The notes beneath the pieces are model-generated. The model worked only from the letters and a program-made list of their open reading frames with translations. It was not told the DNA's origin and did not search any database. This document shows positions 29,783 to 44,565 of a stretch of DNA of 64,000 bases, in pieces. Origin of the DNA: a virus. The stretch is taken from positions 434,001 to 498,000 of the IMG/VR virus record IMGVR_UViG_3300028654_000001; one strand, written 5' to 3'. Numbering within the stretch: the stretch's first letter is position 1; every line of letters begins with the position of its first letter. Made by a program: the position numbers and the translations under genes.

Positions 29783-29882
29783 GGAGAGACAAGAAGAGCG
29801 AAAAGAGTGCTCACCTAATGAGCTACCCACCCGAAGGCGGCTACGGAGTTGAACCATTGTACTTCTCGCGGGCATTCTCCCC
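29783..29882 (-). ncRNA. Y-RNA-like element A (tRNA-like, UUCG-closed)
   Basis: Ends pair as GGGGAGA/TCTCTCC. The 5' side continues ATGC and the 3' side TTG, forming the conserved internal loop. Helix P2 is GCGAGAAG/CTTTTCGC, followed by TACAAT. Inside lies a T-arm-like hairpin (ATGG-TTCAACT-CCGT), an acceptor-like helix closed by TTCG (CCGCC-TTCG-GGTGG), and a D-arm (GCTC...GAGC). T arm before D arm is the permuted order of bacterial YrlA RNAs. 100 nt. Confidence 0.75.
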
Positions 29883-29887
29883 TTTAG

Positions 29888-29959
29888 AGCGGGTAACCAG
29901 ACTCGAACTGGTGACATTCAACTTGGAAGGATGACGTTCTACCACTGAACTATACCCGC
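29888..29959 (-). tRNA. tRNA-Gly(TCC)
   Basis: Acceptor GCGGGTA/TACCCGC, anticodon TCATC-CTTCCAA-GTTGA, D arm GTTCAGTGGTAGAAC, T loop TTCGAGT. CCA not encoded. Confidence 0.92.
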
Positions 29960-29964
29960 ATTAG

Positions 29965-30036
29965 AGTCGAGGATGAGATTCGAACTCACATACAACGGTT
30001 TTGCAAACCGCCCCCTGACCATTCGGGCACCTCGAC
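29965..30036 (-). tRNA. tRNA-Cys(GCA)
   Basis: Acceptor GTCGAGG/CCTCGAC, anticodon GCGGT-TTGCAAA-ACCGT, T arm TGAG-TTCGAAT-CTCA. CCA not encoded. Confidence 0.9.
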
Positions 30037-30047
30037 GTAATGTATAG

Positions 30048-30120
30048 AGCGGGCGATCGGGATCGAACCGACCAGATCCTGATTGGCAACCAGGTACCTC
30101 ACCGTTGAGGAGTCACCCGC
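30048..30120 (-). tRNA. tRNA-Gly(GCC)
   Basis: Acceptor GCGGGTG/CGCCCGC, anticodon CCTGG-TTGCCAA-TCAGG, T arm TCGG-TTCGATC-CCGA. CCA not encoded. Confidence 0.92.
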
Positions 30121-30121
30121 A

Positions 30122-30156
30122 CAAAAAGAAGGAAGCCCGGTTCTCACTAGGCTTCC
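30122..30156 (-). terminator. Rho-independent terminator inside the tRNA array
   Basis: Stem GGAAGCC/GGCTTCC with a 12-base loop followed on the minus strand by TTCTTTTT. It lies between tRNA-Thr(GGT) and tRNA-Gly(GCC). Confidence 0.75.
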
Positions 30157-30228
30157 TACAGGGGCGAACCGGTTTCCCAGTTTTGCCCTCCACCACGGAT
30201 TACCCACGTTTTACGGGGTTATCTCCGG

Positions 30229-30301
30229 AGCCCACACCCGGACTTGAACCGGGCACCCCGTCCTTACCAAGGACGTGCTCTACCAAATGAGCTATGCGGG
30301 C
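30229..30301 (-). tRNA. tRNA-Thr(GGT)
   Basis: Acceptor GCCCGCA/TGTGGGC, anticodon CGTCC-TTGGTAA-GGACG, T arm CCCGG-TTCAAGT-CCGGG. CCA not exactly encoded. Confidence 0.92.
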
Positions 30302-30302
30302 A

Positions 30303-30617
30303 TTATGACTTACGGTTAGGGAACTTTGACTTGGGGTTGACTGAGAACCCCAAAAGAAGGTTGTGGTCATTATCATCGTAGTTCCCGCAAAGGTACCCAA
30401 CCTCGGTACCCGGGATGGTCCCTATGACCCCATTGAGGAGGCCTAGGATGCTAAGAGTGGTTCGGTTAGCCACCCGAACTTGAACCGTAGGGTGATCTGC
30501 TAGGACCTCATTCGCCGGAACTCGATGGGCGAACAAGGCCTTGATGGCCTCAGGATCAATCTGAAAGTATTCATTGAGGCACTTCACAATGTGCTCTGCT
30601 AGCTCTATCTGATCCAT
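30303..30617 (-). CDS. Hypothetical protein
   Basis: 104 residues from ATG 30617, chosen because a longer frame would enter the upstream tRNA-Gly gene and because a GGTGTA motif lies 10 bases before it. Helical N-terminus (IELAEHIVKCLNEYFQ), beta-rich remainder ending in a basic tail. No family recognised. Confidence 0.6.
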   Translation of the reverse strand: MDQIELAEHIVKCLNEYFQIDPEAIKALFAHRVPANEVLADHPTVQVRVANRTTLSILGLLNGVIGTIPGTEVGYLCGNYDDNDHNLLLGFSVNPKSKFPNRKS

Positions 30618-30635
30618 GATAACCAGATACACCAG

Positions 30636-30708
30636 AGCGGGAAAAGGGACTCGAACCCTCGACATTTTGGTTGGGAACCAAGTACTCTACCAACTGAGTT
30701 ACTCCCGC
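30636..30708 (-). tRNA. tRNA-Gly(CCC)
   Basis: Acceptor GCGGGAG/TTCCCGC, loop TTCCCAA with one mismatch at the base of the anticodon stem, T loop TTCGAGT. CCA not encoded. Confidence 0.85.
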
Positions 30709-30712
30709 AAAA

Positions 30713-31264
30713 TCAGATCTTCTTCTCGATCTCTTCCCACACCTCGAGTGCGGCCTGAGTCCTCTTCATATCAGCTTCTGACTCAGGCCTAGGTATGCCA
30801 TTGATCTCAAAGACAGCGGTAGCGGAGATCAATGCTTTGAGCAACTTGATTTTCTGCTTGGTGAAAGCCTTGAGAACCTTGAAGTCAGCTTTGGGGAAAG
30901 CTTCTACGAAGTCCAGGACATCCGTCTCGTCCGTGTACTCAGTGATGGCTGCCCAAGTCACATGCTCCTGATTGTCCAAGTACATGCACGCGGCTATCAT
31001 CACGTAGGTACTTGCCTTGGGCTTGTTCCACGTACCAGGACGAGCCTTCGGATTCATTGTCTGACTACAGAATCGCCACCCTTTCTTTGGAGCATACTCG
31101 AGCCAGTAACGAATGGTTGTTCGAAGCTTGAACCCATAGGGGTAGTCATTGACGAAGTACCCATTCTCCTTGCTGTCGTAGCCATACAGGGGCTTGCCAA
31201 ACTTGTTGGCAAGCTTGACTGTTTGCAGATACCCCTTTATGACCCGAGCAACTAGAAGATCCAT
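30713..31264 (-). CDS. Hypothetical protein with LVARVIKGY N-terminus
   Basis: 183 residues. The start MDLLVARVIKGYLQTVKLA resembles the N-terminal tag seen in several unrelated proteins of this phage. The body is mixed alpha/beta with no recognised motif; the C-terminal 40 residues are helical and acidic/basic. Confidence 0.6.
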   Translation of the reverse strand: MDLLVARVIKGYLQTVKLANKFGKPLYGYDSKENGYFVNDYPYGFKLRTTIRYWLEYAPKKGWRFCSQTMNPKARPGTWNKPKASTYVMIAACMYLDNQEHVTWAAITEYTDETDVLDFVEAFPKADFKVLKAFTKQKIKLLKALISATAVFEINGIPRPESEADMKRTQAALEVWEEIEKKI

Positions 31265-31292
31265 ACCTGATTGATTGAGATAAGAGGATTAG

Positions 31293-31366
31293 AGCTGACG
31301 AGGAGAATCGAACTCCTAACCCCTGGTTTACAAAACCAGAGCTCTACCGGATTGAGCTACATCAGC
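31293..31366 (-). tRNA. tRNA-Thr(TGT)
   Basis: Acceptor GCTGATG/CGTCAGC, anticodon CTGGT-TTTGTAA-ACCAG, T arm AGGAG-TTCGATT-CTCCT. CCA not encoded. Confidence 0.92.
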
Positions 31367-31370
31367 ATTG

Positions 31371-31500
31371 GGTTACTATTGCCAGTGGATTATCCCCGTT
31401 CTGGCCCGGAGTAACCACCGGTATTGGCAGCGATTGTACATTACTCTCTAGGTTCACGCGTAGTACCCAGATCATCTGGCCTAAGGCATTGCCAGATCCA
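31371..31500 (-). other. Structured spacer, possible decayed Y-RNA-like element
   Basis: No gene. It contains inverted repeats GGTTACT/AGTAACC and GCCAG/CTGGC. A GTACAAT motif is preceded by GAGTAAT, which pairs with a downstream GTTACTC. The conserved terminal helix and AUGC/UUG loop of the other Y-RNA-like elements are not found, so only a remnant is possible. Confidence 0.3.
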
Positions 31501-31501
31501 G

Positions 31502-31574
31502 TGGATCGGAGGAGAGTTGAACTCCTGCTCTCTCCCGTGCGAGGGGAGCGTTTTCCCAATTAAACTACCGACCC
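31502..31574 (-). tRNA. tRNA-Ala(CGC)
   Basis: Acceptor GGGTCGG/CCGATCC including the G3-U70 alanine identity pair, anticodon CTCCC-CTCGCAC-GGGAG, T loop TTCAACT. CCA not encoded. Confidence 0.85.
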
Positions 31575-31687
31575 CATGAAGTTTAGTGCCGAGTGCATTG
31601 CCGAGTCGAACGGCTTCTCAATCCAGAGCGAGGGAGGAAATGAACCTCCACAGGGCGTCCCCTGCACGACCAATCATACACTCGACA

Positions 31688-31764
31688 TGGTGGAAGTGAA
31701 GGGACTCGAACCCTCAACCTTTGGCTTGCAAAGCCACTGCTCTCCCAAATTGAGCTACACCCCC
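31688..31764 (-). tRNA. tRNA-Ala(TGC)
   Basis: Acceptor GGGGGTG/CACTTCC with G3-U70, D arm GCTC/GAGC, CCA encoded. The anticodon hairpin TGGC-TTTGCAAA-GCCA is irregular (8-base loop), so TGC is assigned with help of the alanine identity pair; GCA is the alternative. Confidence 0.75.
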
Positions 31765-31767
31765 ATA

Positions 31768-31977
31768 TTACTGGTCAACAATCTCTACTTCACTCTCTTT
31801 CCACCAGTAGAGTGGAAAGTCCAACATCACATACCCTATGTAAGGTGGGTGATTTGGCATACTTGTAACAACTCGTGTACTGGGTAATGGCTTTTCGATA
31901 TCAAGCCCATTACGTAACAGGTAGTTATTCCAGGCCTCGGGTTTAATCTTTACGAGTGTACCTACTGAAAGATCCAT
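31768..31977 (-). CDS. Small hypothetical protein
   Basis: 69 residues with an SH3-like beta pattern (VGTLVKIKPEAW, YIGYVMLDFPLYW, SEVEIVDQ). It stands alone between tRNA-Ala(TGC) and a small zinc protein; GGTGTA lies 9 bases upstream of the ATG. Confidence 0.55.
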   Translation of the reverse strand: MDLSVGTLVKIKPEAWNNYLLRNGLDIEKPLPSTRVVTSMPNHPPYIGYVMLDFPLYWWKESEVEIVDQ

Positions 31978-31995
31978 ACGGATCTATACACCATA

Positions 31996-32142
31996 TCAGT
32001 GATAATTATCAGGACGCTGACAACTACTATCATGATGAAGATACTCACCTTGATAGCACCAAGAATCACAGTAACCACAGACTTGAACGGTGGGTTCCTT
32101 TTTGGGTTCCGACTTATGTTCCTTCAAAATCTCTGCTTCCAT
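31996..32142 (-). CDS. Very small zinc-finger protein
   Basis: 48 residues from ATG 32142. CGYCDSWC...HHDSSC has four Cys/His ligands. Lysine/glutamate-rich N-terminus. Role unknown. Confidence 0.5.
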   Translation of the reverse strand: MEAEILKEHKSEPKKEPTVQVCGYCDSWCYQGEYLHHDSSCQRPDNYH

Positions 32143-32175
32143 GGTAACCTCAACTGAGTCACAAAAAAAGAAGAT

Positions 32176-32253
32176 TGGTGGACAGGATCGGAATCGAACC
32201 GACAATCAACACATTGACCTCTTAGGACAACACGCTTCCCTAGCGACCTGGGG
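32176..32253 (-). tRNA. Degenerate tRNA-like gene (loop CTAAGAG; possible Leu AAG)
   Basis: T arm GTCGG-TTCGATT-CCGAT and the 3' end with encoded CCA are intact. The 5' acceptor strand CCCCAGG pairs only in four positions with CCTGTCC, and the anticodon stem has a mismatch. Probably a damaged or recombinant tRNA gene. Confidence 0.45.
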
Positions 32254-32403
32254 TCTCCATGCCATTCGGTGCTTCTGAAACCTTGGTCAAACCTTCCAGA
32301 GTTGTCAAGGCCCGAGCCGCGCCCTGCCTCGCTCCCCTCTTTCCAGCTATGCGTTGGGGAGTCAACCCAATCACAACCTTGTTTTTAGTGGTGCCTTCCC
32401 AAT

Positions 32404-32901
32404 TTAGGCTATCCAGCCCATAGTGGAACATGCCGGACTCGAACCGGCCACCTCTTGCCTGCCAGGCAAGCGCTCTCCCAGATGAGCTAATGCCCCATTC
32501 TTTCTACCGTGACCTACGTTAAGAGACCCAAATGTTGGGGTAAGCGAGTGACAGTTTGGACATAAGAAGGTCAGGTTGGTTTCGATTGAGTTGTGAGGAT
32601 TTCCGTCTAGGTGCTCAACATTCACAGGGACCTTACCTGTTACCGGGTTCTTCTCAGCCCAATCACACCTAGTACAGTTTTCTCCGTACTTACTTATGAG
32701 GTACCTGCGAACATGACTTGAGACCCTAAGGTCTCGGCCATGACTGATGTTACCTGTTTCAAGACCCGACTTCCATCGATCAATGTACTCAAGGTACTGT
32801 TGCTCAAGCTGGCAGTAGTTCGAACAGTACTTGCTCCTGAGGTTGGTGACAGATTTGCCGCATATTGGGCATGGTTTTCTATCCCTACGGGGTCTAGCCA
32901 T
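32404..32901 (-). CDS. HNH endonuclease whose frame reads through tRNA-Ala
   Basis: 165 residues. CPICGKSV...CSNYC and CTRCDW are zinc pairs; VNVEHLDGNPHNSIETNLTFLCPNCHSLT is given here as its HNH region, with His in VEHLDG and the CPNCHS knuckle. The last 30 codons are the translation of the entire tRNA-Ala(GGC) gene, and the stop is 20 bases beyond it. A natural protein end near FGSLNVGHGRKNG would be enough, so the read-through may be tolerated rather than needed. Confidence 0.8.
   Translation of the reverse strand: MARPRRDRKPCPICGKSVTNLRSKYCSNYCQLEQQYLEYIDRWKSGLETGNISHGRDLRVSSHVRRYLISKYGENCTRCDWAEKNPVTGKVPVNVEHLDGNPHNSIETNLTFLCPNCHSLTPTFGSLNVGHGRKNGALAHLGERLPGRQEVAGSSPACSTMGWIA
32424..32496 (-). 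tRNA. tRNA-Ala(GGC)
   Basis: Acceptor GGGGCAT/ATGTTCC with G3-U70, anticodon CTTGC-CTGGCAG-GCAAG, T arm GCCGG-TTCGAGT-CCGGC. It lies wholly inside the 3' part of an HNH reading frame on the same strand. Confidence 0.9.
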
Positions 32902-32943
32902 GCTTTATGGAGAGCATAGGTGAATTACCAGACCGCTCTCACA

Positions 32944-33432
32944 TTACTTACGAATCTTGGACATGAGCTTTCGACCCATGTTCATCATGTGCATACCTAC
33001 AACCTCTGGATCAGCTACAATCTCTTTCAATTCAACTAGCTTTGAAAAGTCTGGCTTACCACTGATTGTGAATGGTATGTATGACATGCTGATAGTTGTC
33101 ATCTCTCCACGAATCCCTAGGTGCATCGCTATTGAGTCAACGGGTTGGGGTGGGGCAAAAAAGTAATAGATCTCATGTAAACGCGCTGAAGCGTTCACTG
33201 AGTATTTATCCCCAAGAGTCTTCCGAAACAAGTTCAGCAAATTAGGTAGGAGTAAGTTTACGGACTCCTTAGCCAGAGCAAAAATAGGTTTATCACCAGA
33301 GGGGGCAAAAGCTAGCTTGTCCTGAAACCTAGAGAAAACCCAATCAGGGATTGGTGGGTTCCACCCTGACATGGCTACCCGGAAGTTCCAGCTGGCGACA
33401 ACTCTTCTAACTAGAGGATCCATTCTAGCCAA
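32944..33432 (-). CDS. Hypothetical protein with RRVVASW N-terminus
   Basis: 162 residues. The N-terminus MARMDPLVRRVVASWNFRVA matches the tag motif of other proteins here. The middle is a helix followed by beta strands (HLGIRGEMTTISMSYIPFTI). No family recognised. Confidence 0.55.
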   Translation of the reverse strand: MARMDPLVRRVVASWNFRVAMSGWNPPIPDWVFSRFQDKLAFAPSGDKPIFALAKESVNLLLPNLLNLFRKTLGDKYSVNASARLHEIYYFFAPPQPVDSIAMHLGIRGEMTTISMSYIPFTISGKPDFSKLVELKEIVADPEVVGMHMMNMGRKLMSKIRK

Positions 33433-33451
33433 GGAAGGCTATAGATAGTTC

Positions 33452-33667
33452 CTACTTGCTGTACTTCCGGATGTGATGCACAACCCCTTGAGGGTCATAT
33501 TGATCAAAGTAATCAGCAACTTGCTCACGCTCCGTGTGAAGTTCAGCAAGCTCTTTGATTGTCAACTTGCGGTGATTGCGAATGCCATCCGTTGTTTGGA
33601 GCATACACATTCCACAGCAGCCCTTGATTCCAGCTCTACGCCGGTGATTCCGTTTGAAGTTTGCCAT
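33452..33667 (-). CDS. Small basic Cys-containing protein
   Basis: 71 residues, basic N-terminus (FKRNHRRRAGIKGCCGMC), then an acidic helix (LAELHTEREQVADYF). Similar short proteins are common in phages; role unknown. Confidence 0.55.
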   Translation of the reverse strand: MANFKRNHRRRAGIKGCCGMCMLQTTDGIRNHRKLTIKELAELHTEREQVADYFDQYDPQGVVHHIRKYSK

Positions 33668-33713
33668 GAGATCTCCGTGCCGCCGTCAGCGGCTTGAACG
33701 TGATCTCAGACAA

Positions 33714-33789
33714 TGGTTGGGATGCAGGGATTCGAACCCCGATACACGGCACCAGAAACCGCGGCCCTAGCCAGTTAGACGACATCCCA
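33714..33789 (-). tRNA. tRNA-Gln(CTG)
   Basis: Acceptor TGGGATG/CATCCCA, anticodon GCGGT-TTCTGGT-GCCGT, T arm GGGG-TTCGAAT-CCCT, CCA encoded. Confidence 0.9.
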
Positions 33790-33794
33790 ATGCG

Positions 33795-34031
33795 TTATGA
33801 ACCTTGAAGGAAGCCAGCGAGTAAGTCAAGTTGATTTGTTCTAGGTAGTGGCTTGAGTAACTCGAGCTCCGCCTCGAACTCCCTCAAGGGGGCTAGAGCT
33901 GCTTCTAGATCCACATCCACTACATCTTCGGACACTGCCCTTAGTGAAGAGGCCCAGCAGGCATAGCTGCAGTATTCGGCTCTAGGATAGACAACCGGTC
34001 TGACACCACACCACGGACAAGGTCTCTTCAT
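33795..34031 (-). CDS. Small zinc-finger protein
   Basis: 78 residues: CPWCGVRP...CSYACW gives two Cys pairs, followed by an acidic helix (VDLEAALAPLREFEAELELL). Function unknown. Confidence 0.6.
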   Translation of the reverse strand: MKRPCPWCGVRPVVYPRAEYCSYACWASSLRAVSEDVVDVDLEAALAPLREFEAELELLKPLPRTNQLDLLAGFLQGS

Positions 34032-34041
34032 AGGACATTAG

Positions 34042-34114
34042 CAGGGGCACAGAGACTCGAACTCATGATTGGCGGTTTTGGAGACCGCTTTCCTACCAAT
34101 TGAAAGATACCCCT
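34042..34114 (-). tRNA. tRNA-Trp(CCA)
   Basis: Acceptor AGGGGTA/TGCCCCT, anticodon GCGGT-CTCCAAA-ACCGC, discriminator G, T loop TTCGAGT. CCA tail not encoded. Confidence 0.93.
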
Positions 34115-34150
34115 AGAGTTACACCAAGTAATTGAAACAAGTAAAAAGGT

Positions 34151-34229
34151 TGGCGGAGCTGATGGGATTCGAACCCACGATCTATACCTTGACAGGGTAC
34201 TGGGGACGGCCGGACTCCCCTACAGCTCC
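34151..34229 (-). tRNA. tRNA-Asp(GTC)
   Basis: Acceptor GGAGCTG/CAGCTCC, anticodon GTACC-CTGTCAA-GGTAT, T arm GTGGG-TTCGAAT-CCCAT, discriminator G, CCA encoded. The D arm is long. Confidence 0.9.
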
Positions 34230-34283
34230 GTAGTATCACCACAATCGCCAGAATCGCTATCCATAAAGCATCTCCTTTCGTTT

Positions 34284-34742
34284 TCAGTAATCGTAATAGG
34301 AACTCTCCCTAGGGAGTTCCAGGTGGTAAAGCTTCAACTTCGCAACATTAGAGGGTGCGTGAGTGTACTTCGAGAACAGGTCCCAGGCATGAGTAAGCCC
34401 GCAACCAGGACGTTTCTCTGGCCAGGGTTGGATATTATCCCAGATCCTCTCGAGACGAGTAGGTGGAGGGATATGTTCCTCGTGGAACAATAGAAGGAAC
34501 TCTGGCTTGAGCAAAGGATCACTTGGCTCATTGTAGATCTTCATCCCGTAGCCGCCGAACATCCCAGTGCAGGTCATCTCGATGGGAGGGTCATACTCTT
34601 CAATGAGTCGGATCACCCTCTCGAACTCTGCGGTCTCGTAGGCCTGAACAACAGGCTTGGAGAACCCACCCTTCTCGTAAGGGTAGTACTTGTTGTGAAG
34701 CTCTTTGAGCCACACCACAGCTTCATCAGGGAAGGTGCTCAA
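34284..34742 (-). CDS. Hypothetical protein
   Basis: About 152 residues from a TTG at 34742 that overlaps the upstream stop (TTGA); a longer frame reaches 34820. It is globular, with YYPYEKGGFSKPVVQAYETA and GGYGMKIYNEPSDP. No family recognised. Co-transcribed with the zinc-ribbon gene upstream. Confidence 0.55.
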   Translation of the reverse strand: MSTFPDEAVVWLKELHNKYYPYEKGGFSKPVVQAYETAEFERVIRLIEEYDPPIEMTCTGMFGGYGMKIYNEPSDPLLKPEFLLLFHEEHIPPPTRLERIWDNIQPWPEKRPGCGLTHAWDLFSKYTHAPSNVAKLKLYHLELPRESSYYDY

Positions 34743-35008
34743 TACAGAGTGTCCATTGAGAAAAGGTCTCCGTACTTTGAGTCCCTCACCATACAGTAAG
34801 GAGGCGTAGGGTGCCCGCAATTGCAGATTGGAGCAACCAAGCCCCTCATTGTACCCTGTACGAAAGGGATCGTAGTCTCAGTCATCTTTCCACATTTGTA
34901 ACAGGGGTAGCTAAATGGTTCTAGGTCATAACGCTTTGCCCAGAGCTTAGGGTCTACCCCGTAGCAGATCAACCGATGAGGTATTGGAGGGTAGCGTCTA
35001 CGTGCCAT
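34739..35008 (-). CDS. Small zinc-ribbon protein
   Basis: 89 residues from ATG 35008, which lies 10 bases after the 3' end of Y-RNA-like element B. CYKCGKM...CNCG gives two Cys pairs; the N-terminus is basic. A longer frame would run through element B and a tRNA gene and is rejected. Confidence 0.6.
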   Translation of the reverse strand: MARRRYPPIPHRLICYGVDPKLWAKRYDLEPFSYPCYKCGKMTETTIPFVQGTMRGLVAPICNCGHPTPPYCMVRDSKYGDLFSMDTLY

Positions 35009-35017
35009 AAGAGTTAC

Positions 35018-35148
35018 GCGGAGACAAGAAGTGCAGGGACTGTTTTGGGACCATTGCTCTGCCAGTTGAGCTACGCCTGCCAAAGCTGACGACGGGAATC
35101 GAACCCGCAACCCACGGTTTAGATTGTAGTCTCTACGATATTCTCCGC
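35018..35148 (-). ncRNA. Y-RNA-like element B (with tRNA-like 3' half then 5' half)
   Basis: Terminal helix GCGGAGA/TCTCCGC, loop ATATC/TTG, P2 GTAGAGACT/AGTCCCTGC with one mismatch, then ACAATC. The inside has a canonical T arm GCGGG-TTCGATT-CCCGT (about 35084-35121). It is followed by a standard 5' tRNA half with D arm GCTC...GAGC. The segments ATGGT/ACCGT can pair as an anticodon stem. The acceptor-like strands are joined instead of being the ends. 131 nt. Confidence 0.75.
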
Positions 35149-35152
35149 ATAG

Positions 35153-35224
35153 TACCCCCGACAGGAGTCGAACCTGTGACCTTGAACTTAGGAAGTTCCT
35201 GCTCTTCCTCTGAGCTACGAGGGC
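35153..35224 (-). tRNA. tRNA-Arg(CCT)
   Basis: Acceptor GCCCTCG/CGGGGGT, loop TTCCTAA on a GGAAC/GTTCA stem with one mismatch, T arm ACAGG-TTCGACT-CCTGT. CCA not encoded. Confidence 0.87.
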
Positions 35225-35225
35225 G

Positions 35226-36008: not shown

Positions 36009-36129
36009 ACCTAGAACCAGTACACCAAAAGAAGTATGTGGATTGAACCCCACGACGCATCTCAAGCCACCCCTCACCACTCTTCACCCAGACCCTGATG
36101 ATGTCTCCTTTGGCTAGAGGACTTTTAGG

Positions 36130-36465: not shown

Positions 36466-36541
36466 GGGTGATGTACGGGTATCGAACCCGCCAATATAAG
36501 GGCCACGACCTTACCCCGTCACCATGCTGGGTCACACCACC
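36466..36541 (-). tRNA. tRNA-His(GTG)
   Basis: Acceptor GGTGGTG/CATCACC, discriminator C as in tRNA-His, anticodon TAAGG-TCGTGGC-CCTTA, T arm GCGGG-TTCGATA-CCCGT. Position 33 is C instead of U. CCA not encoded. Confidence 0.85.
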
Positions 36542-38061: not shown

Positions 38062-38077
38062 ACTAAAGTTACACCAG

Positions 38078-38335: not shown

Positions 38336-38423
38336 CGGAAAGTGTAGGAATCGAACCCTTACCCCTTACGAGGTACCCACCAGTTTTCGAAGCTGGTTGC
38401 CATCCGGTTAGCTGGCACCTTCC
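38336..38423 (-). tRNA. tRNA-Ser(CGA)
   Basis: Acceptor GGAAGGT/ACTTTCC, loop TTCGAAA on CCAGC/ACTGG, long variable arm, T arm AGGG-TTCGATT-CCTA. CCA not encoded. Confidence 0.9.
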
Positions 38424-38436
38424 GTAAAATTGTGAT

Positions 38437-39207
38437 CTAAATCTCGAGATCATCTAAAAGAGACTCTAGGTCACCTTGGATGTACTCGAAGATCGACTGG
38501 TTGCCATCAAAGTACTTAGTCACACCCTGACCAACCTTGGTCTCTACTACATCAGTGCTAATCTCTTCAAAGTTAGATGGAAGTGCATCCTCCCACTCAT
38601 CATAGTTAGTAGGAAGGTTGTGTATCCACTCCTTGAAGAAAGCGAAACTACCGTAATCATGGTCAGAAGGTGAGAAGTCTGGGATGTAGCTATGAACCTG
38701 ATCCAGAGCCCTCTGTTGTTTAGAGAAGTCTAATGACTTCAACCAACTTAGATCCTCCTCTGTAGGAGCATCCTCAGGGAATGACCCAATACGATCTATC
38801 AGATCGTTCCGATCAAAATCAACAAGTACTTTGGCTATAGGAGAATCATCAATATCACTGTAGATATCGTCAGCATTGAAGTCATATCGTTGAAGAAGAA
38901 GCCCGATTAGCTTAAGTTCTCGCTTGAGTTCTTTTTGTAGGTTGGGTAAGTCAGAGGGATCATCTATTAAAGACTTGAATCGATGAGTGTATTCCTTGTC
39001 TAACTTCTTCAACCTAGAATCAATGTCCAGGAGTTTTCTGGTCTTATCACTCAAGGGTTTCGAGTCGAACGCTTTACTCATGGTATCTAATAAAGAGAGA
39101 GGCCCCGATAGATTCCACTCCTTGAATGTATACCAAGCTAGATTGAGTCTTCGGACATCAACCGCAGCTTTATACCTAGCAACCACCCGAGAAACTAGAG
39201 AACTCAT
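38437..39207 (-). CDS. Hypothetical protein with RVVARY N-terminus
   Basis: 256 residues. Begins MSSLVSRVVARYKAA, the clearest copy of the shared tag. The rest is acidic and helical (SRLKKLDKEYTHRFKSLIDD, LPNLQKELKRELKLIGLLLQ). No family recognised. Confidence 0.6.
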   Translation of the reverse strand: MSSLVSRVVARYKAAVDVRRLNLAWYTFKEWNLSGPLSLLDTMSKAFDSKPLSDKTRKLLDIDSRLKKLDKEYTHRFKSLIDDPSDLPNLQKELKRELKLIGLLLQRYDFNADDIYSDIDDSPIAKVLVDFDRNDLIDRIGSFPEDAPTEEDLSWLKSLDFSKQQRALDQVHSYIPDFSPSDHDYGSFAFFKEWIHNLPTNYDEWEDALPSNFEEISTDVVETKVGQGVTKYFDGNQSIFEYIQGDLESLLDDLEI

Positions 39208-39235
39208 ATTGTAGATCTGAATACGAAAAGAATAG

Positions 39236-39307
39236 TCGGGGTGGTCAGACTTGAACTGACGGCCTCATGCTCCCAAAGCACGCGATCTACCACTGATCTA
39301 CACCCCG
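39236..39307 (-). tRNA. tRNA-Pro(TGG)
   Basis: Acceptor CGGGGTG/CACCCCG with the C1-G72 pair typical of proline tRNA, anticodon CGTGC-TTTGGGA-GCATG, T loop TTCAAGT. CCA not encoded. Confidence 0.92.
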
Positions 39308-39370
39308 GTAACGATTACTCTTCTAGCACTTGGAGGGCAGGGTACCACATTACCCATCAAGTGGTATTAG

Positions 39371-39454
39371 TGCATCAGAGAGGACTTGAACCTCCACGGG
39401 TATTACCCCACTTGCACCTCAAGCAAGCGTGTTTGCCAGTTACACCACTGATGC
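39371..39454 (-). tRNA. tRNA-Leu(GAG)
   Basis: Acceptor GCATCAG/CTGATGC, anticodon CTTGC-TTGAGGT-GCAAG, long variable arm, T loop TTCAAGT. CCA not encoded. Confidence 0.92.
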
Positions 39455-39514
39455 ATATGTTAGTAAGATATGTCTAGGAAACCAAAGGTTTAACCCAAAC
39501 AAAAAAAATTCAAG

Positions 39515-39612
39515 GAAAAAGCCGCTAAGTCACCCCTGACAAGGGGTGCATAAGACTCGTTTTCAACCATAGAATGTAGTCCCACACAGTATTCAGGGGC
39601 TACTTAGCGGCT
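39515..39612 (-). terminator. Extended hairpin with U-tract around element H
   Basis: The arms AGCCGCTAAGT and ACTTAGCGGCT flank element H. On the minus strand the right arm is followed by TTTTTCC. Together they form a long stem that could stop transcription coming from element G and the tRNA genes upstream. Confidence 0.5.
39533..39599 (-). ncRNA. Y-RNA-like element H (minimal)
   Basis: Terminal helix CCCCTGA/TCAGGGG extended outward by GCCGCTAAGT/ACTTAGCGGC. Loop ATAC/CTTG, P2 TGTGTGGGAC/GTCTTATGCA (10 pairs), then TACATT and a short apical loop. 67 nt, the same size as elements C and D. The outer helix is followed by TTTTT on the minus strand, so element H may also terminate the transcript of element G. 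Confidence 0.7.
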
Positions 39613-39629
39613 ATTTCCTTAAAAGTTTG

Positions 39630-39855
39630 ACCTCGACAAGTGGTGACAGAGAGGGTTTTTGTGGCCTACACATTGATGGCCCATCTTTCGATGGGTGACA
39701 TCCGTTCGTCCCGAGCCTTCGGCTCCCGACTAGTCTAAGTAGACGAGAGTCTCTGAGCCCTTGTTAAAGGGGCTACTGGCTCCATCGCTAGTCCCTCACG
39801 GGGCATCGCTACCTTAGGACCGTTATCGATTGTACTCCTTGTCGGTATTCGAGGT
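39630..39855 (-). ncRNA. Y-RNA-like element G (large, with 23S rRNA-like segment)
   Basis: Terminal helix ACCTCGA/TCGAGGT, loop ATACC/ACTTG, P2 GACAAGGAG/CTCTCTGTC with one mismatch, then TACAAT. The 190-base insert contains several hairpins: AGCCC...GGGCT, GAGCC-GAA-GGCTC and CCCATC-GAAA-GATGGG. At 39806-39826 it contains 21 bases that read as the highly conserved 23S rRNA segment around the I-CeuI homing site (core GGTCCTAAGGTAGC). 226 nt, the largest member. Confidence 0.65.
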
Positions 39856-39940
39856 CGAACGAGATATACACCGATCTGATACCCAAGTGCAATAGGGAAA
39901 GTTGTCGGGGTGAAAGGATCTTCAACCTAGGTCAGCTAAT

Positions 39941-40017
39941 TGGTCAGGGCAGCCAGAGTTGAACTGGCGATCTTGTGTTCCCGAAACACACGCTTTACCA
40001 GGCTAAGCTATACCCTG
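39941..40017 (-). tRNA. tRNA-Pro(CGG)
   Basis: Acceptor CAGGGTA/TGCCCTG, anticodon TGTGT-TTCGGGA-ACACA, T arm GCCAG-TTCAACT-CTGGC, CCA encoded. The upstream HNH gene ends 15 bases inside it. Confidence 0.93.
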
Positions 40018-40527
40018 AAGAGATAATTTCCCCTCGTGCACCCCAGCGTGACAGTTTCTACATAAGAGCACACAATTTTGAAGTTCTTGCTCTATCCGTT
40101 GCCAAGACCAACCCCTCCAACCTGAAAAGTTTGGGTCTTTCTTGCTAGGATCAAGGTGGTGCATATCTAGAGCTGACTTAAAAACATCAAACCCACAAAT
40201 ACGACAGTTACCACCGAGGTAAGCTATAACCTTACCCTTCTTTTCTTGACCCTTAGTTATGCAGTAATTATTGTGACACCTACCGCACACTTTTAGCTTA
40301 TGCCCATAAAACTTGGTGAGGTCGTCTTCACCACAGTATATACACTTGCGGGGTTTCCCATTAGGGTTTGGATCATTCGGAAGTTTTCCATATGGGCCTC
40401 GTTTGGTATGAAGCTCATACTTATTAAGCCAATATCTAACATTTGTGAAAGAGGTGTTTAGATCTATGGCAATCTGCCTTACACTCTTCCATTGCTGAAG
40501 ATGTAGGATAAGAACTTCTTTTTCCAT
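40003..40527 (-). CDS. HNH homing endonuclease upstream of tRNA-Pro
   Basis: 174 residues. N-terminal HTH-like part (SVRQIAIDLNTSFTNVRYWL), zinc pairs CIYCGE/CGRC, then the core CRICGFD...LDMHHLDPSKKDPNF...CVLLCRNCHAGVHEG (H-N-H with zinc). The stop lies 15 bases inside tRNA-Pro(CGG). Its start is preceded by an inverted repeat built from tRNA-Pro 5' sequence. Confidence 0.87.
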   Translation of the reverse strand: MEKEVLILHLQQWKSVRQIAIDLNTSFTNVRYWLNKYELHTKRGPYGKLPNDPNPNGKPRKCIYCGEDDLTKFYGHKLKVCGRCHNNYCITKGQEKKGKVIAYLGGNCRICGFDVFKSALDMHHLDPSKKDPNFSGWRGWSWQRIEQELQNCVLLCRNCHAGVHEGKLSLQGIA

Positions 40528-40529
40528 TA

Positions 40530-40580
40530 TTCAGAGTGTAGCTCAGATTAGTAAAGGTACCAGATTGAGCTATACCCTGA
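40530..40580 (-). repeat. Inverted repeat made of tRNA-Pro 5'-half sequence
   Basis: CAGGGTATAGCTCAATCTGG (40558-40579 on the minus strand) closely matches the first 22 bases of tRNA-Pro(CGG). After 13 bases an inverted, slightly diverged copy follows (ATCTGAGCTACACTCTGA), forming an 18-bp hairpin just before the HNH start codon. Looks like a scar of tRNA disruption. Confidence 0.7.
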
Positions 40581-40584
40581 TGAA

Positions 40585-40745
40585 AGTTGGCCGCTACTGG
40601 CGGGTTTCCCCGGCCAGTTACCAGAGCTTGCCTCTATCCGCTGCTTGCAACGGGGTCTACGGCAAGATGCCCAAGCCCGCGGTCTTTGCCAGGCTTGGAG
40701 ATTCAGCTAGCCCGGTCCTTGTAGAGGCCCGGATGATCATTGCTA
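40585..40745 (-). other. GC-rich stretch with an amber-interrupted small frame
   Basis: On the minus strand, AAGG then 7 bases then ATG (about 40743) starts a 27-codon frame (IIRASTRTGLAESPSLAKTA). It ends in TAG and stays open for 12 more codons. On the plus strand a 98-codon frame is also open. Base composition is richer in GC than the neighbours. Could be a decayed gene or imported fragment. Confidence 0.3.
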
Positions 40746-40748
40746 GCC

Positions 40749-41112
40749 TTATGAAAGTTCTTTGGAATCGTGTAGTCGACGCATCTGAATCTCGGCAGTA
40801 TTCAGGGCGGCTTGGTAAACTGTGGATTCCCAGGGACTCAAGGACGCTTTATTTGGCTTGAACAAAGCCTTCTTCAAGAAGATCCCATCCATGCGGCCAC
40901 ATCTCTTGAGCTCGATTGGATTATCGATGATGAGGCCCAGAATGCCCATCGAGGCGTCCGAGGCCCCGCACCAAGAGTCATCCCCACTGTTATTGAAGAT
41001 GGCCCCAGAGAGGGCTATCTTACCGCACTGGAGGATGGTCAGGTGCCTCACCACAGGGGCGGGCATCCTAGCCAGGGTATCACCGATGAGGGTTCCTCGT
41101 TTGAGTGACATG
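40749..41112 (-). CDS. Hypothetical protein
   Basis: About 120 residues from ATG 41112 (MSLKRGTLIGDTLARM); a longer frame would enter tRNA-Pro(GGG). GGTGTA lies 9 bases upstream. A regular hydrophobic pattern (SGAIFNNSGDD, GASDASMGILGLII) suggests a beta-rich, right-handed-helix-like fold. No family recognised. Confidence 0.5.
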
Positions 41113-41128
41113 CTGAATAATACACCAG

Positions 41129-41202
41129 TCAGGGTAAATGGACTCGAACCATCGACCTCTTGCTCCCCGAGCAAGCGCTCTACCAAACTGAGCTACACCC
41201 TG
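41129..41202 (-). tRNA. tRNA-Pro(GGG)
   Basis: Acceptor CAGGGTG/TACCCTG, anticodon CTTGC-TCGGGGA-GCAAG (C at position 33), T arm GATGG-TTCGAGT-CCATT. CCA not encoded. Confidence 0.87.
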
Positions 41203-41207
41203 ATAGT

Positions 41208-41347
41208 CACGAAGACAAGAATTCGAAAGAGAAACGTACGGCGTCTTGACCGCTAGACGACCCCCGCATAGGCTTGAGCGGAGGGAGGGATTCGAACCCC
41301 CGATATCCGGCTTGGATGGCAATGTACTCCTTCAGGCATTCTTCGTG
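41208..41347 (-). ncRNA. Y-RNA-like element E (with tRNA-Gly-like halves in reverse order)
   Basis: Terminal helix CACGAAGA/TCTTCGTG, loop ATGC/TTG, P2 TGAAGGAG/CTCTTTCG, then TACATT. Inside, a glycine-tRNA-like 3' half (TCCAA-GCCGG, T arm GGGGG-TTCGAAT-CCCTC, acceptor strand CCTCCGC) comes first. After 10 bases the 5' half follows (GCGGGGG, D arm GTCT...AGAC). The two acceptor strands pair in all 7 positions. It is the most tRNA-like member. 140 nt. Confidence 0.78.
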
Positions 41348-41937
41348 GTGGTTGGAGGCGGAGTTGAACCGCCGACACCTTGATTTTCAGTCAAGTGCTC
41401 TACCGACTGAGCTATCCAACCGTTAGGCAAATCAAAGTCAAGAAGATCTCCTTCATACCTCTCTGCCTCAGCAATAAGCAATGAGTCCTCTCTGGTTGAA
41501 TGCTCTATTCTGTGGCAACAAGAGCAGAGCAACTCACACTTCTCAAGTTCTTTCTTCAGTACACTCCAACTCTTGTTAGCTAAACCACCAAAGTTGAAGT
41601 CCTTATCACGTAGGTGGTGGAACTCAAAGGCTGACTGATGCCCAGACCACCCACACCTAATACATTTCCCACCCAGCATCTTGATCCCAGTAGCTTTAGC
41701 TCGATATCTACGGATCTTGGTGTTGCAAGAGTTGCATCTACGTCTACGACTACTCCCATTAAGTCTACCGCAAATCACACATGAGTCATACGTTGGTGAT
41801 TGAATCAACTCGACCCTAAGACCTGACTTGAATGGGACACAAGTAAGGCAAGCTCTTCTCCTGTTGAGAACCCTAATGGTACCATCAACAATGACCCGAT
41901 TAGGGAAGTTTACCTTGCATACTCGACAGGTAGGCAT
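41332..41937 (-). CDS. HNH endonuclease whose frame reads through tRNA-Phe
   Basis: 201 residues from ATG 41937 (MPTCRVCKVNFPN). Three zinc pairs (CRVC, CLTC, CVIC...CNSC), a basic region (SRRRRCNSCNTKIRRYRAK), then the core CIRCGWSG...FEFHHLRDKDFNFGG...CELLCSCCHRIEH. The final 29 codons are tRNA-Phe sequence and the stop lies in element E. Protein function probably ends near LIAEAERYEGDLLDF. Confidence 0.82.
   Translation of the reverse strand: MPTCRVCKVNFPNRVIVDGTIRVLNRRRACLTCVPFKSGLRVELIQSPTYDSCVICGRLNGSSRRRRCNSCNTKIRRYRAKATGIKMLGGKCIRCGWSGHQSAFEFHHLRDKDFNFGGLANKSWSVLKKELEKCELLCSCCHRIEHSTREDSLLIAEAERYEGDLLDFDLPNGWIAQSVEHLTENQGVGGSTPPPTTTKNA
41346..41421 (-). tRNA. tRNA-Phe(GAA)
   Basis: Acceptor GGTTGGA/TCCAACC, anticodon CTTGA-CTGAAAA-TCAAG, T arm GGCGG-TTCAACT-CCGCC, CCA encoded and touching element E. 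Lies inside the 3' part of an HNH frame. Confidence 0.95.
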
Positions 41938-41956
41938 ACCAAAAATATAGCACAAT

Positions 41957-42042
41957 TGGTATCGGAGGAGGGACTCGAACCCTCAAGGGATTTCTCCCAG
42001 CAGTATTTGAAGCTGCCGCGTTTGCCTTTTCGCCACTCCGGC
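41957..42042 (-). tRNA. tRNA-Leu(CAA)
   Basis: Acceptor GCCGGAG/CTCCGAT (one mismatch), loop TTCAAAT, long variable arm, T arm GAGGG-TTCGAGT-CCCTC, CCA encoded. Confidence 0.87.
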
Positions 42043-42048
42043 ATGTAG

Positions 42049-42130
42049 TACCCAAGGAGAGACTTGAACTCTCACGTCACAAGGACCACCGGTTCTGAGC
42101 CGGCGCTGTACGCCATTCCAGCACTTGGGC
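42049..42130 (-). tRNA. tRNA-Leu(CAG)
   Basis: Acceptor GCCCAAG/CTTGGGT, anticodon GCCGG-CTCAGAA-CCGGT, long variable arm, T loop TTCAAGT. CCA not encoded. Confidence 0.92.
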
Positions 42131-42135
42131 ATGGA

Positions 42136-42203
42136 CCAGAGACAAGAAGTGCAGAGAGGGTGTTTTCTCCAATTGAATTGTACTCCCCACGAGCATTCTC
42201 TGG
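42136..42203 (-). ncRNA. Y-RNA-like element C (minimal)
   Basis: Terminal helix CCAGAGA/TCTCTGG, loop ATGC/TTCTTG, P2 GTG-GGGAG / CTCTCT-CAC, then TACAAT with a mini-hairpin CAAT/ATTG and an A-rich segment. No tRNA-like arms. 68 nt. Confidence 0.72.
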
Positions 42204-42205
42204 TT

Positions 42206-42280
42206 TGGTCGGCCGAGGTGGACTTGAACCACCGTTACACGCGTATCAGGCGTAGATCCTAACCATTAGAAGACCGGCCG
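42206..42280 (-). tRNA. tRNA-Ile(GAT)
   Basis: Acceptor CGGCCGG/TCGGCCG, anticodon TACGC-CTGATAC-GCGTG, T arm GGTGG-TTCAAGT-CCACC, CCA encoded. HNH gene upstream ends 15 bases inside it. Confidence 0.9.
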
Positions 42281-42664
42281 TCGTCGCATCCCATTGGTTC
42301 GATACCTGTGACAGAGAGCGCAAACAAGCTCACACTTGGCGATCTCCTCAAGTAATCTTTCAACGGAGGTGCATTTTGAATTTGCACGAGCTATCTCAAA
42401 AGACTTTGTTGTTGGGTCAAGATGATCAAAGTCCATAGCCCAGTAAGGGTGTGGCTCTCCACAATCTGTACAAGGCTTGCCACTCTTGGCCTCCTGGATG
42501 ACCCTCTTGATTTCAGCTCTGATCTTTACCTTATCCTTTCTAACTCTGGCACATTGACACAACTTGCAGTACCCCATGAGGTACTTACCCCTCCCGTGAA
42601 ACTCACGTTCGGACTTAGTTTGAGTGCAAGCCGGGCAATACTTGGTGCGCTTAGCTTTCGGTAT
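42266..42664 (-). CDS. HNH homing endonuclease upstream of tRNA-Ile, apparent ATA start
   Basis: From the first ATG (42577) the frame is 103 residues. Upstream codons stay open and read PKAKRTKYCPACTQTKSERE, a clear N-terminal zinc knuckle, back to an ATA at 42664. A GGTGTA motif lies 12 bases before that ATA. The core is CTDCGEPHPYWAMDFDHLDPTTKSF...CELVCALCHR (HNH). Either ATA is used as start or the ATG has mutated and the gene is damaged. A 9-bp inverted repeat (GGTGATAAC/GTTATCACC) overlaps the leader. Confidence 0.75.
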   Translation of the reverse strand: MPKAKRTKYCPACTQTKSEREFHGRGKYLMGYCKLCQCARVRKDKVKIRAEIKRVIQEAKSGKPCTDCGEPHPYWAMDFDHLDPTTKSFEIARANSKCTSVERLLEEIAKCELVCALCHRYRTNGMRRRPVF

Positions 42665-42703
42665 ACTGGTGATAACTACACCAATGAGTTATCACCGAAA
42701 GTG

Positions 42704-42842
42704 AGCGAAGACAAGAGAGTGAAAGACAAGGGAACCCTTCTAAATACCACTCGTGAAGCTTTCACTTCACGGCAGGATCTGCCCCTGCAAAGCTCCCGGG
42801 CGTAAGCCCCCGGATAATGAAGTCCTTCTTGCATTCTTCGCT
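42704..42842 (-). ncRNA. Y-RNA-like element F (tRNA-like, closed acceptor, long variable arm)
   Basis: Terminal helix AGCGAAGA/TCTTCGCT, loop ATGC/TTG, P2 GAAGGAC/GTCTTTC, then TTCATT. The insert has a GC hairpin in the variable-arm position, a 7-base-loop arm GCAGG-GGCAGAT-CCTGC in the T-arm position, and a perfect 7-bp helix CGTGAAG/CTTCACG closed by 6 bases in the acceptor position. 139 nt. Confidence 0.68.
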
Positions 42843-42929
42843 TGGTAGCCCCTCCCGGACTCGAACCGGGACGTCACGAAGGACAGGAGGGTTTAAGCCT
42901 CCCCCGTCTGCCAGTTCCAGCAAGGAGCC
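42843..42929 (-). tRNA. tRNA-Leu(TAA)
   Basis: Acceptor GGCTCCT/AGGGGCT, anticodon GGAGG-CTTAAAC-CCTCC, long variable arm, T arm CCCGG-TTCGAGT-CCGGG, CCA encoded directly next to element F. Confidence 0.92.
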
Positions 42930-42932
42930 ATG

Positions 42933-43121
42933 TTAGTCTTTGGTCTTCCAGATCTCGTCTGTAATTGGAGGGAGCAGCTCGCCAGCCTCAAGGGCTCTTC
43001 GACGGTCTTCCTCCATACGAATCTTCATCTCTTCATAACGGAGGCGATCCTCCTCCGTCTCCTCGGGCTCTGGGATGATCCCACCCTCTTCAGCTATCAC
43101 CCTAGTCTGAACTATAACCAT
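42933..43121 (-). CDS. Small acidic hypothetical protein
   Basis: 62 residues, nearly all charged helix (PEETEEDRLRYEEMKIRMEE). Overlaps the FmdB-like gene's end by 20 bases. Function unknown. Confidence 0.55.
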   Translation of the reverse strand: MVIVQTRVIAEEGGIIPEPEETEEDRLRYEEMKIRMEEDRRRALEAGELLPPITDEIWKTKD

Positions 43122-43290
43122 CGGAGGCCCAACCCTTCCCTTGAAGTTGAAAACCTGTGCCGCCGCTTATGAGCCTCTTGGCTTCTGGCTTGTCGCACTT
43201 GGGGCAATCCGTCAACGGAGGCTCCGTAATCTTCTGGTCAGCCTCCCAGGTGTGTTGGCAGGCCTTGCATTGGTACTCGTAAGTCGGCAC
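43102..43290 (-). CDS. FmdB-type zinc-ribbon protein
   Basis: 62 residues from a GTG at 43290. VPTYEYQCKACQHTWE and CPKCDKPEAKRLISGG match the FmdB regulatory-protein zinc ribbon (MPxYEYxCxxCxxxFE...CPxCG). A longer upstream frame lacks similarity. Such small ribbons are widespread in phages; role unknown. Confidence 0.75.
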   Translation of the reverse strand: MPTYEYQCKACQHTWEADQKITEPPLTDCPKCDKPEAKRLISGGTGFQLQGKGWASDGYSSD

Positions 43291-43300
43291 TTGATTACCC

Positions 43301-43762
43301 TTAGGATGGCATTGGGCCTGGGCCAATGTTGACTTCGTGTTTGACCCGGGTGAACCTATCGAACAGCGGCTTACCACCAAGGAGTTTGATGAGTCGGCAC
43401 CGGGTCTTGAAGATGATCCTATGAAGACGGTTTGGATCTGGAGGTGGTGGTGGCTCATACTTGTGCCAATGATTTCTTGCAGAACTCAAAGATGCTATTA
43501 GACATTGAACACCACCAGGGTCAGGTATCGCATCCGGGTACCCAGCTTCGACCTTGGTAGTACTAATCACCGAGGTTCCCCAAAGGTGCCCTACTAAATT
43601 ACCACCCCACTCTGGTCTGGGTTCTGACTTACCAAGTAACTCATAGTCACCATGAGCAGCAAGAACTGGTACATCTTCTGGGTGAACAAGAAGTACTGCT
43701 ACTCGCAGATCTTCACATTCAACCCTAGACAAGGTATCAGAAACATCATGAAGCGTGATCAT
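43301..43762 (-). CDS. Hypothetical protein
   Basis: 153 residues from ATG 43762 (MITLHDVSDTLSRVE), with GGTGTA 9 bases upstream. Globular N-terminal half, proline stretch (EPPPPPDPNR) near residue 110, basic C-terminus. No family recognised. Confidence 0.55.
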   Translation of the reverse strand: MITLHDVSDTLSRVECEDLRVAVLLVHPEDVPVLAAHGDYELLGKSEPRPEWGGNLVGHLWGTSVISTTKVEAGYPDAIPDPGGVQCLIASLSSARNHWHKYEPPPPPDPNRLHRIIFKTRCRLIKLLGGKPLFDRFTRVKHEVNIGPGPMPS

Positions 43763-43781
43763 AAAGATCACTACACCGAAG

Positions 43782-44291
43782 CTATCGAATACTAGAACCA
43801 AGGAACCTGAACGCCACCCGTGTTTCAACAGAAGCCTCTTTGGCCTTCTGCACGAATTGACGCATCTTTCCCTTGAGGATATCTATGTCGTCTTGAGTAG
43901 CTGGACGTCCAAGTTGAGTACTCAGAGCCTTACTCCACTGTTGAACGAATGGATCCTTGGGGTCAGGCTTCGGAGCATCCTTGGGCTTCTTATCGAAGAC
44001 TGGGGCATCTTTGGCCTTCTCCTTTTGGACAAACTGCTTCATCTGTCCTTTGAGAATGTCGATATCGGCCTCCGTTGCAGGCCTACCAAGATTATCACTA
44101 AGCGCCTTCTGCCACTGATTCTTAAAGTGGTCATCCTTGCCACCTTCAGACTTAGGAGCTGGAGGCTTACCCTTGTTCTCAACCACCCGGTGCTTGTGCT
44201 TGTCAGCTTTCGGGTGAGCTTTCAGATAGGTATCCAAAGCCTCTTGAGTTGGGAACTCCTTAGCAAGTTTGGTATCTTCCATAATGACCAC
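43782..44291 (-). CDS. Hypothetical protein with two tandem 40-residue repeats
   Basis: 169 residues. Two copies of a helical module, QWQKALSDNLGRPATEADID... (about 58-96) and QWSKALSTQLGRPATQDDID... (about 115-152), each ending KxxMxQFVQKxK and linked by a proline/lysine-rich segment. The C-terminus RVAFRFLGSSIR resembles the tag found at N-termini elsewhere. Confidence 0.6.
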   Translation of the reverse strand: MVIMEDTKLAKEFPTQEALDTYLKAHPKADKHKHRVVENKGKPPAPKSEGGKDDHFKNQWQKALSDNLGRPATEADIDILKGQMKQFVQKEKAKDAPVFDKKPKDAPKPDPKDPFVQQWSKALSTQLGRPATQDDIDILKGKMRQFVQKAKEASVETRVAFRFLGSSIR

Positions 44292-44338
44292 ACTCAGGAC
44301 AAGAATAAGAACTATACCGTGATCTCAAAGAAGAGTTT

Positions 44339-44412
44339 TGGTGACCCCACCGGAATTTGAATCCGGACCACGGCCTTGAAAGGGCCGTCACCTACCGTTA
44401 GTGTATGGGGCC
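44339..44412 (-). tRNA. tRNA-Glu(TTC)
   Basis: Acceptor GGCCCCA/TGGGGTC, anticodon CGGCC-CTTTCAA-GGCCG, T arm CCGGA-TTCAAAT-TCCGG, CCA encoded. Confidence 0.93.
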
Positions 44413-44417
44413 GTTAG

Positions 44418-44492
44418 CGTCCCTGAGGGGCGATGATCCCCTTTCAGCAGCTTGAGAGGCTACTATCCTAACCAAACGTAGACGACAGGGAC
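44418..44492 (-). tRNA. tRNA-Glu(CTC) with unusual T loop
   Basis: Acceptor GTCCCTG/CAGGGAC, D arm GTCTACGTTTGGTTAGGA, anticodon GTAGC-CTCTCAA-GCTGC, discriminator G. The T stem AGGGG/CCCCT closes a loop ATCATCG instead of TTCGAAT, so tertiary D-T contacts would be lost. CCA not encoded. Confidence 0.75.
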
Positions 44493-44498
44493 ATGATA

Positions 44499-44565
44499 GG
44501 TGAGACAAGGGACAAACTAGAGAGGTTCAATTATCGAGATTGTACTCCAGTTCAGCATTCTCACC
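44499..44565 (-). ncRNA. Y-RNA-like element D (minimal)
   Basis: Terminal helix GGTGAGA/TCTCACC, loop ATGC/CCCTTG, P2 GAAC-TGGAG / CTCTA-GTTT, then TACAAT with hairpin CAAT-CTCGATA-ATTG. No tRNA arms. 67 nt. Confidence 0.72.

Follow-up and report, generated by a model that had tools for sequence, protein, structure and literature searches.

Eight probable Y RNAs with one common stem and different heads in the tRNA array of a giant phage encoding a Ro protein

Eight structured RNAs between tRNA genes

The window considered here, 64,000 nucleotides long, comprises bases 434001-498000 of the 512,571-base virus record IMGVR_UViG_3300028654_000001, a giant bacteriophage. Its minus strand carries a transfer-messenger RNA (tmRNA) and 41 tRNA genes, and between the tRNA genes we found eight structured RNA elements (E1 to E8), all on the minus strand. 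Judged by their sequences, they are very probably Y RNAs, i.e. partners of Ro proteins, belonging to the bacterial YrlA lineage. An earlier note on this DNA had proposed that they are Y RNAs, and this is supported by matches to the YrlA model, by the same motif behind bacterial Ro genes and by a Ro protein encoded in the window.

The elements differ in their heads. E3 (39533..39599, 67 nt), E6 (42136..42203, 68 nt; 2 nt behind tRNA-Ile and 5 nt before tRNA-Leu) and E8 (44499..44565, 67 nt; 6 nt before tRNA-Glu) are minimal. E1 (29783..29882, 100 nt), 4 nt behind tRNA-Gly(TCC), is tRNA-like, with the T-loop GGTTCAACTCC and the D-arm TAGCTCA..GAGC. E2 (35018..35148, 131 nt), 3 nt behind tRNA-Arg(CCT), has a tRNA-like module of the YrlA type, and E5 (41208..41347, 140 nt), directly behind tRNA-Phe and 5 nt before tRNA-Pro(GGG), also bears a tRNA-like module. 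E7 (42705..42841, 137 nt), 1 nt behind tRNA-Leu(TAA), carries apical hairpins, and E4 (39629..39856, 228 nt) has a large apical domain with a segment of 23S rRNA right behind its UACAAU. A motif check detected T-loop and D-arm motifs in E1, E2 and E5, and no such module in E3, E4, E6, E7 and E8. Three minimal elements and one large one had been described before, which is correct; tRNA-like modules occur in three elements rather than the four originally counted, E7 having none.

With ARAGORN predictions, five of the eight elements start at most 5 nt from the 3' end of a tRNA gene, where about 1.5% is expected by chance for each (P = 3.7e-8). E8 makes a sixth, with 3 nt between its start and the preceding tRNA-like gene, scored as tRNA-Sec (44569-44651); the 3' ends of three elements lie 4-6 nt before the next tRNA. 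E3 is an exception, being enclosed by a long outer hairpin with a T run behind it, an arrangement that resembles a terminator. The same abutment on tRNAs is found in other phage arrays. As the ends of the Y RNAs abut tRNA ends, the simplest reading is that the cuts of tRNA maturation probably also excise the Y RNAs.

Shared architecture and covariation

Each element has a terminal helix of 7-8 bp that closes with GA/UC. The adjoining internal loop has 4-6 nt on its 5' side, starting with AU (AUGC, AUAC or AUAU), and 7-9 nt on its 3' side, ending with CUUG. Behind the second helix (7-10 bp) stands UACAAU, UACAUU or UUCAUU; the apical part that comes next measures about 15-180 nt and leads into the returning strand. 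All eight elements lie where they had been placed, and folding, covariation and a descriptor scan agree on one architecture. The proposed loop letters AUGC/AUAC apply to all but E2 (35018), which has AUAU, and UACAAU/UACAUU behind the second helix to all but E7 (42705), which has UUCAUU. Unconstrained RNA folding gave the terminal helix in all eight cases (seven folded alone, E4 within a longer stretch) and the second helix in all except E7, whose minimum free energy structure favours other pairs.

Covariation was measured on a stem-only alignment of the eight elements, registered by hand. Standard pairs occupy 98.3% of the alignment cells, and both sides vary in 11 of the 15 pairs. The covariation score of 0.864 compares with 0.223 +/- 0.048 for shuffled alignments, none of 500 reaching it, and drops to 0.234 or less when the alignment is slid by 1-3 columns as a control. 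Compensatory changes, which had been claimed for the second helix, are hence confirmed, and both helices are supported. A descriptor scan of both window strands returned exactly the eight elements (scores 33.8-37.1); the best score in 40 dinucleotide-shuffled windows (2.56 Mb) was 32.2, and nothing else in the window scored as high as 33. Because the elements had first been picked by eye for their pairing, and the descriptor shaped on them afterwards, their independent association with Ro genes is the stronger evidence. A covariance model (R1) recovered the minimal elements, E1 and one RNA of Myxococcus phage Mx1, the long elements being missed because of a window-length limit; a strict-filter run of this model on 13 Ro-encoding phages found nothing.

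The Ro protein of the phage

At 61833..63542 on the minus strand, the phage encodes a Ro60/Rsr-type protein of 569 amino acids, in which the Pfam domains TROVE and vWA_Ro60 are both above cut-off. A sequence search with this protein yielded Deinococcus radiodurans Rsr (E 9.5e-13), along with two more entries for Ro60. Its predicted model (pLDDT 78, pTM 0.80) was used as the Foldseek query: the top 13 matches are Ro60/Rsr structures, including Ro60 of Thermus phage phiLo, with E-values of 6e-19 for the RNA-bound Ro 1yvp and 1e-16 for 2nvo. The Ro protein that had been postulated at 61.8-63.5 kb is thus borne out by its domains and its predicted Ro60-like fold.

Association with Ro genes in bacteria

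Bacterial genomes were scanned with a DNA pattern of the conserved letters, pairing not being required; the following numbers refer to 118 loci among the matches listed. The descriptor scan found the full structure in 57 of them. A Ro/TROVE reading frame lies within the fetched stretch (up to 8 kb) at 51 of the 57 structured loci versus one of the 61 letter-only loci (Fisher P = 2e-25). About nine in ten structured matches to the motif mark bacterial Ro loci. In the 51 loci, every one of the 158 Y RNAs has the same orientation as the Ro gene; the median distance from the stop of that gene downstream to the nearest Y RNA is 65 nt, and an rsr locus holds between one and seven of them. Since some members of these arrays reach the YrlA gathering score in the Rfam search, the bacterial loci are true Y RNA loci; the minimal members of 57-90 nt that accompany the YrlA-matching ones are Y RNAs missed by Rfam. 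As the motif also finds such minimal forms, Y RNA families seem to be much larger than annotated. Among the bacterial loci that have their Ro gene, none was seen to contain an rRNA-like module reaching 20 nt.

Loci with several Y RNAs, for example in Ruegeria (L192), Bryobacterales (L163) and Pseudomonas (L156), hold two to seven together and mix minimal with tRNA-like forms, as does the window. In these loci they stand in tandem behind the Ro gene, whereas in the window phage they are spread between tRNA genes. Tandem sets of two to seven behind rsr were observed in Verrucomicrobia, Acidobacteria, Planctomycetes, relatives of Roseobacter and Pseudomonas (L120-L192 and others). By the present survey, bacterial and phage genomes commonly carry several Y RNAs each. 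The statement in the earlier note that six to eight in one phage would be unusual was therefore too strong, given one to seven per rsr locus, several in other tRNA-array phages and, in one of these, an orthologous ordered set.

Relation to known Y RNAs

The gathering score of the Rfam YrlA model (RF02553) is 69 bits. Below this threshold, the full-length model matches E2 (41.0 bits, E 2e-6), E5 (36.3 bits, E 3e-5) and E1 (27.0 bits, E 6.5e-4 in a short search). The vertebrate Y_RNA model (RF00019) gave no match at gathering, nor at laxer thresholds in the stretches searched.

In vertebrate hY1 and hY5, the asymmetric loop has CUUG on its 3' side. Vertebrate Y RNAs (hY1-hY5) and the window elements alike have paired ends, a helix of 7-8 bp, an asymmetric loop, a second helix and a variable loop; the window elements have AUGC in place of CGAAGG and UACAAU in place of UUAUC, and they lack the poly-U La site. 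The Ro60 site has been described as a seven-pair helix with a bulged C and a three-nucleotide bulge on the opposite strand (PMC4726728). In the window we find paired ends forming a terminal helix of about 7 bp with an asymmetric loop, compensatory change in the helices and a genetic tie to Ro60/Rsr.

Bacterial YrlA and Y RNA-like RNAs, as far as Chen et al. 2014 is relayed in PMC7790460 and PMC4726728 (see also RF02553), correspond to the window set in the order of stems. Both have GAAUGC behind helix 1, UAC behind helix 2 and CUUGUC before the 3' strand of helix 1; the YrlA-like T-arm, hairpin and D-arm recur in E1, E2 and E5, and a Ro/Rsr protein is encoded in the same genome. Unlike YrlA, the window RNAs number eight and are scattered in a tRNA array away from the Ro gene; three are devoid of an apical module, one has a 23S-like module, and all stay below the Rfam cut-off.

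Other phages and an orthologous set

Ro-like proteins are encoded in 308 phage records. Thirteen of the Ro-encoding records were searched with the YrlA model, and most of them gave matches below its threshold that lie close to or at the Ro gene or a tRNA array. In several of these phages, matches by the Ro gene span the whole model; among the shorter matches there are also ordinary tRNAs. In the window's own phage record (G000), long Y RNAs outside the window were sought with the YrlA model only. Phage Mx1, whose Ro is 42.5% identical to the window Ro, has at least two such RNAs. Actinophages, crAss-like phages and Mx1, too, have a Ro gene with a YrlA-like RNA close to or at it, usually within a tRNA array or next to one. 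The searches made gave one to a few per phage, compared with eight in the window, and the actinophage stems show the letters CGA, UUAUC and CAU in place of those of the window.

One environmental phage contig of 114 kb, G001 (loci L057 and L070), encodes a Ro protein and contains seven elements in the order of E8 to E2 of the window. Six of them can be paired with window elements, revealing 11 compensatory changes (six in E4, two each in E7 and E8, one in E2). Ten further changes affect one side and leave the pair intact, and no pair is broken. The suggestion that other phages should be searched has thus led to several Y RNAs in tRNA-array phages and to this ordered set. A nucleotide search of phage records returned a tRNA match only, and a related-locus search with the window Ro returned no loci. 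In Gordonia phage GMA2 (L019 1269-1325, minus strand) we observed a Pistol ribozyme above cut-off (56.8 bits), beside a tRNA and tmRNA cluster near the Ro gene.

Ribosomal RNA segments in Y RNA heads

The large head of E4 opens with ATAACGGTCCTAAGGTAGCGA (39806..39826, minus strand), which is identical in 21 of 21 positions to E. coli 23S rRNA 1916-1936, i.e. the 3' half of helix 69 and the linker towards helix 71. Virtually all E. coli genomes contain this sequence in their 23S rRNA. Directly behind the UACAAU-type motif, the segment, 20-21 nt long with at most one change, is found in Y RNAs of four phages; besides the window these copies are in the E4 ortholog of G001 (L057 7940-7964), in G005 (L066 228-256) and in L239 (2972-2996), the last being an element entered by hand, whose 3' core reads CUAG. 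A 281-nt Y element at L127 6650-6930 (minus strand) carries the GTPase-associated centre of 23S rRNA over a length of 67 nt (Rfam LSU, E 2e-14). L127, possibly of phage origin, is a contig binned with an Acidobacterium (metagenome-assembled genome of Ca. Sulfotelmatobacter) and has nine Y RNAs and a tRNA array; none of five L127 proteins tested matched PHROGs.

Among 248 Y elements screened against 23S rRNA, only the four-phage segment and L127 exceed chance-level similarity, and a 16S rRNA screen of the Y elements gave nothing convincing. We did not count L238 and L240, where the 23S motif lies outside any Y RNA and resembles an I-CeuI site, nor L242, apparently true 23S rRNA. The resemblance of Y RNA 3' strands, for instance AAATTCCTTGTCGG in L169, to 23S 1936-1949 is probably due to convergence and was not used. 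No paper on Y RNAs bearing rRNA segments was found in the literature searched, and a Y RNA with a copied 23S segment appears to be new. Exact 23S segments in Y RNAs would tie Ro particles directly to the ribosome as well as to the conflict between phage and host.

Possible function and alternative explanations

We propose that one Ro-binding stem with different apical modules serves the phage's own Ro/TROVE protein. Most probably the elements would be transcribed within tRNA operons, a cut behind one tRNA producing the Y RNA 5' end and a cut before the next tRNA its 3' end, and Ro would grip all of them through the stem they share. What differs between them, the apical module (none, tRNA-like, hairpins or 23S-like), could then be an interchangeable gate or adaptor that chooses which RNA, enzyme or ribosome-related factor the Ro particle meets during infection. 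For such an adaptor role, argued by analogy, the chances seem not quite even; its precedent is the Y RNA of D. radiodurans, which tethers Rsr to PNPase (PMC4726728, PMC7790460). More tentatively still, giant tRNA-array phages may possess a Y RNA kit with a common Ro handle and exchangeable heads, some copying ribosomal functional centres (the 23S helix 69/71 region in four phages, the complete GTPase-associated centre in a related array), by which the Ro particle would be steered towards, or act as a decoy for, host factors directed at ribosomes and tRNAs.

Several observations weigh against the Y RNA assignment and its tie to the window Ro. None of the eight elements reaches the YrlA gathering score in the Rfam search, and five, the minimal ones among them, have no match to that model at all. 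In contrast to bacterial loci, about 17 kb separate the window Ro gene from the Y RNA closest to it. Of the Y-bearing viral records, seven of 16 have no Ro gene, many of the records being fragments, and comparison of E8 with its L085 ortholog showed one broken pair. Neither an RNase PH-domain protein nor RtcB was detectable in phage record G000, so that any PNPase-type partner would be the host's.

The main rival is that the Y RNAs are mainly decoys, whose modules draw host nucleases, modification enzymes and ribosome-targeting toxins off tRNA and 23S rRNA, with Ro only stabilising them. The large tRNA array would suit this, as would the T- and D-arm motifs of three elements, 23S 1916-1936 in four phage Y RNAs and the GTPase-centre copy in a fifth Y RNA; such a role has already been proposed for the tRNA-like domain of YrlA (PMC7790460). 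Yet the three minimal elements and E7 are without tRNA-like arms, for which reason it cannot be the role of all eight, and YrlA of S. Typhimurium was not cut by the nuclease tested (PMC7790460), although a competitive inhibitor need not be cut. We regard decoying as unlikely to be the main function, but it may fit part of the set. That the elements are cis-acting spacers of tRNA operons (processing signals or terminators) and not separate RNAs with Ro is highly improbable: their abutment on tRNA genes and the terminator-like hairpin around E3 would be accounted for, but the same motif stands behind bacterial Ro genes, often without adjacent tRNAs, most tRNA junctions of the same array are without it, and conserved loop letters are not required for such a role. 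Decayed tRNA genes or look-alike chance hairpins, which the odd tRNA-like genes beside some elements and the unmet Rfam cut-off might suggest, are scarcely credible in view of the covariation, the shuffles, the Ro-gene association and the conserved order with compensations in another phage.

What seems new is a scattered, tRNA-punctuated set of this size, how abundant minimal Y RNAs are, and the presence of rRNA segments in Y RNAs. Phage Y RNAs as such were reportedly described by Chen and co-workers in 2014. Phage Ro proteins are known already (PMC7824862). The role of Y RNA heads is a long-open question, which eight natural variants on one stem, with orthologs, make testable.

Further features of the array

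Three tRNA-like genes on the minus strand (36467-36541, 38337-38423 and 44569-44651) were missed by ARAGORN and score as tRNA-Sec below the cut-off; at least one of them resembles a tRNA-Ser with a long variable arm. Between tRNA-Gln and tRNA-Asn, a stretch of about 250 nt (45095-45350, minus strand) without an Rfam match folds unusually well (z -2.7) and is possibly a further structured RNA. Within the tRNA array, the protein encoded at 26734-27924 (minus strand) matches dinitrogenase reductase ADP-ribosyltransferase (DRAT; E 1e-10) in its C-terminal part. The tmRNA (23935-24281, minus strand) encodes the tag VADLPRDSLGSG and adjoins HNH endonuclease and DUF559 genes.

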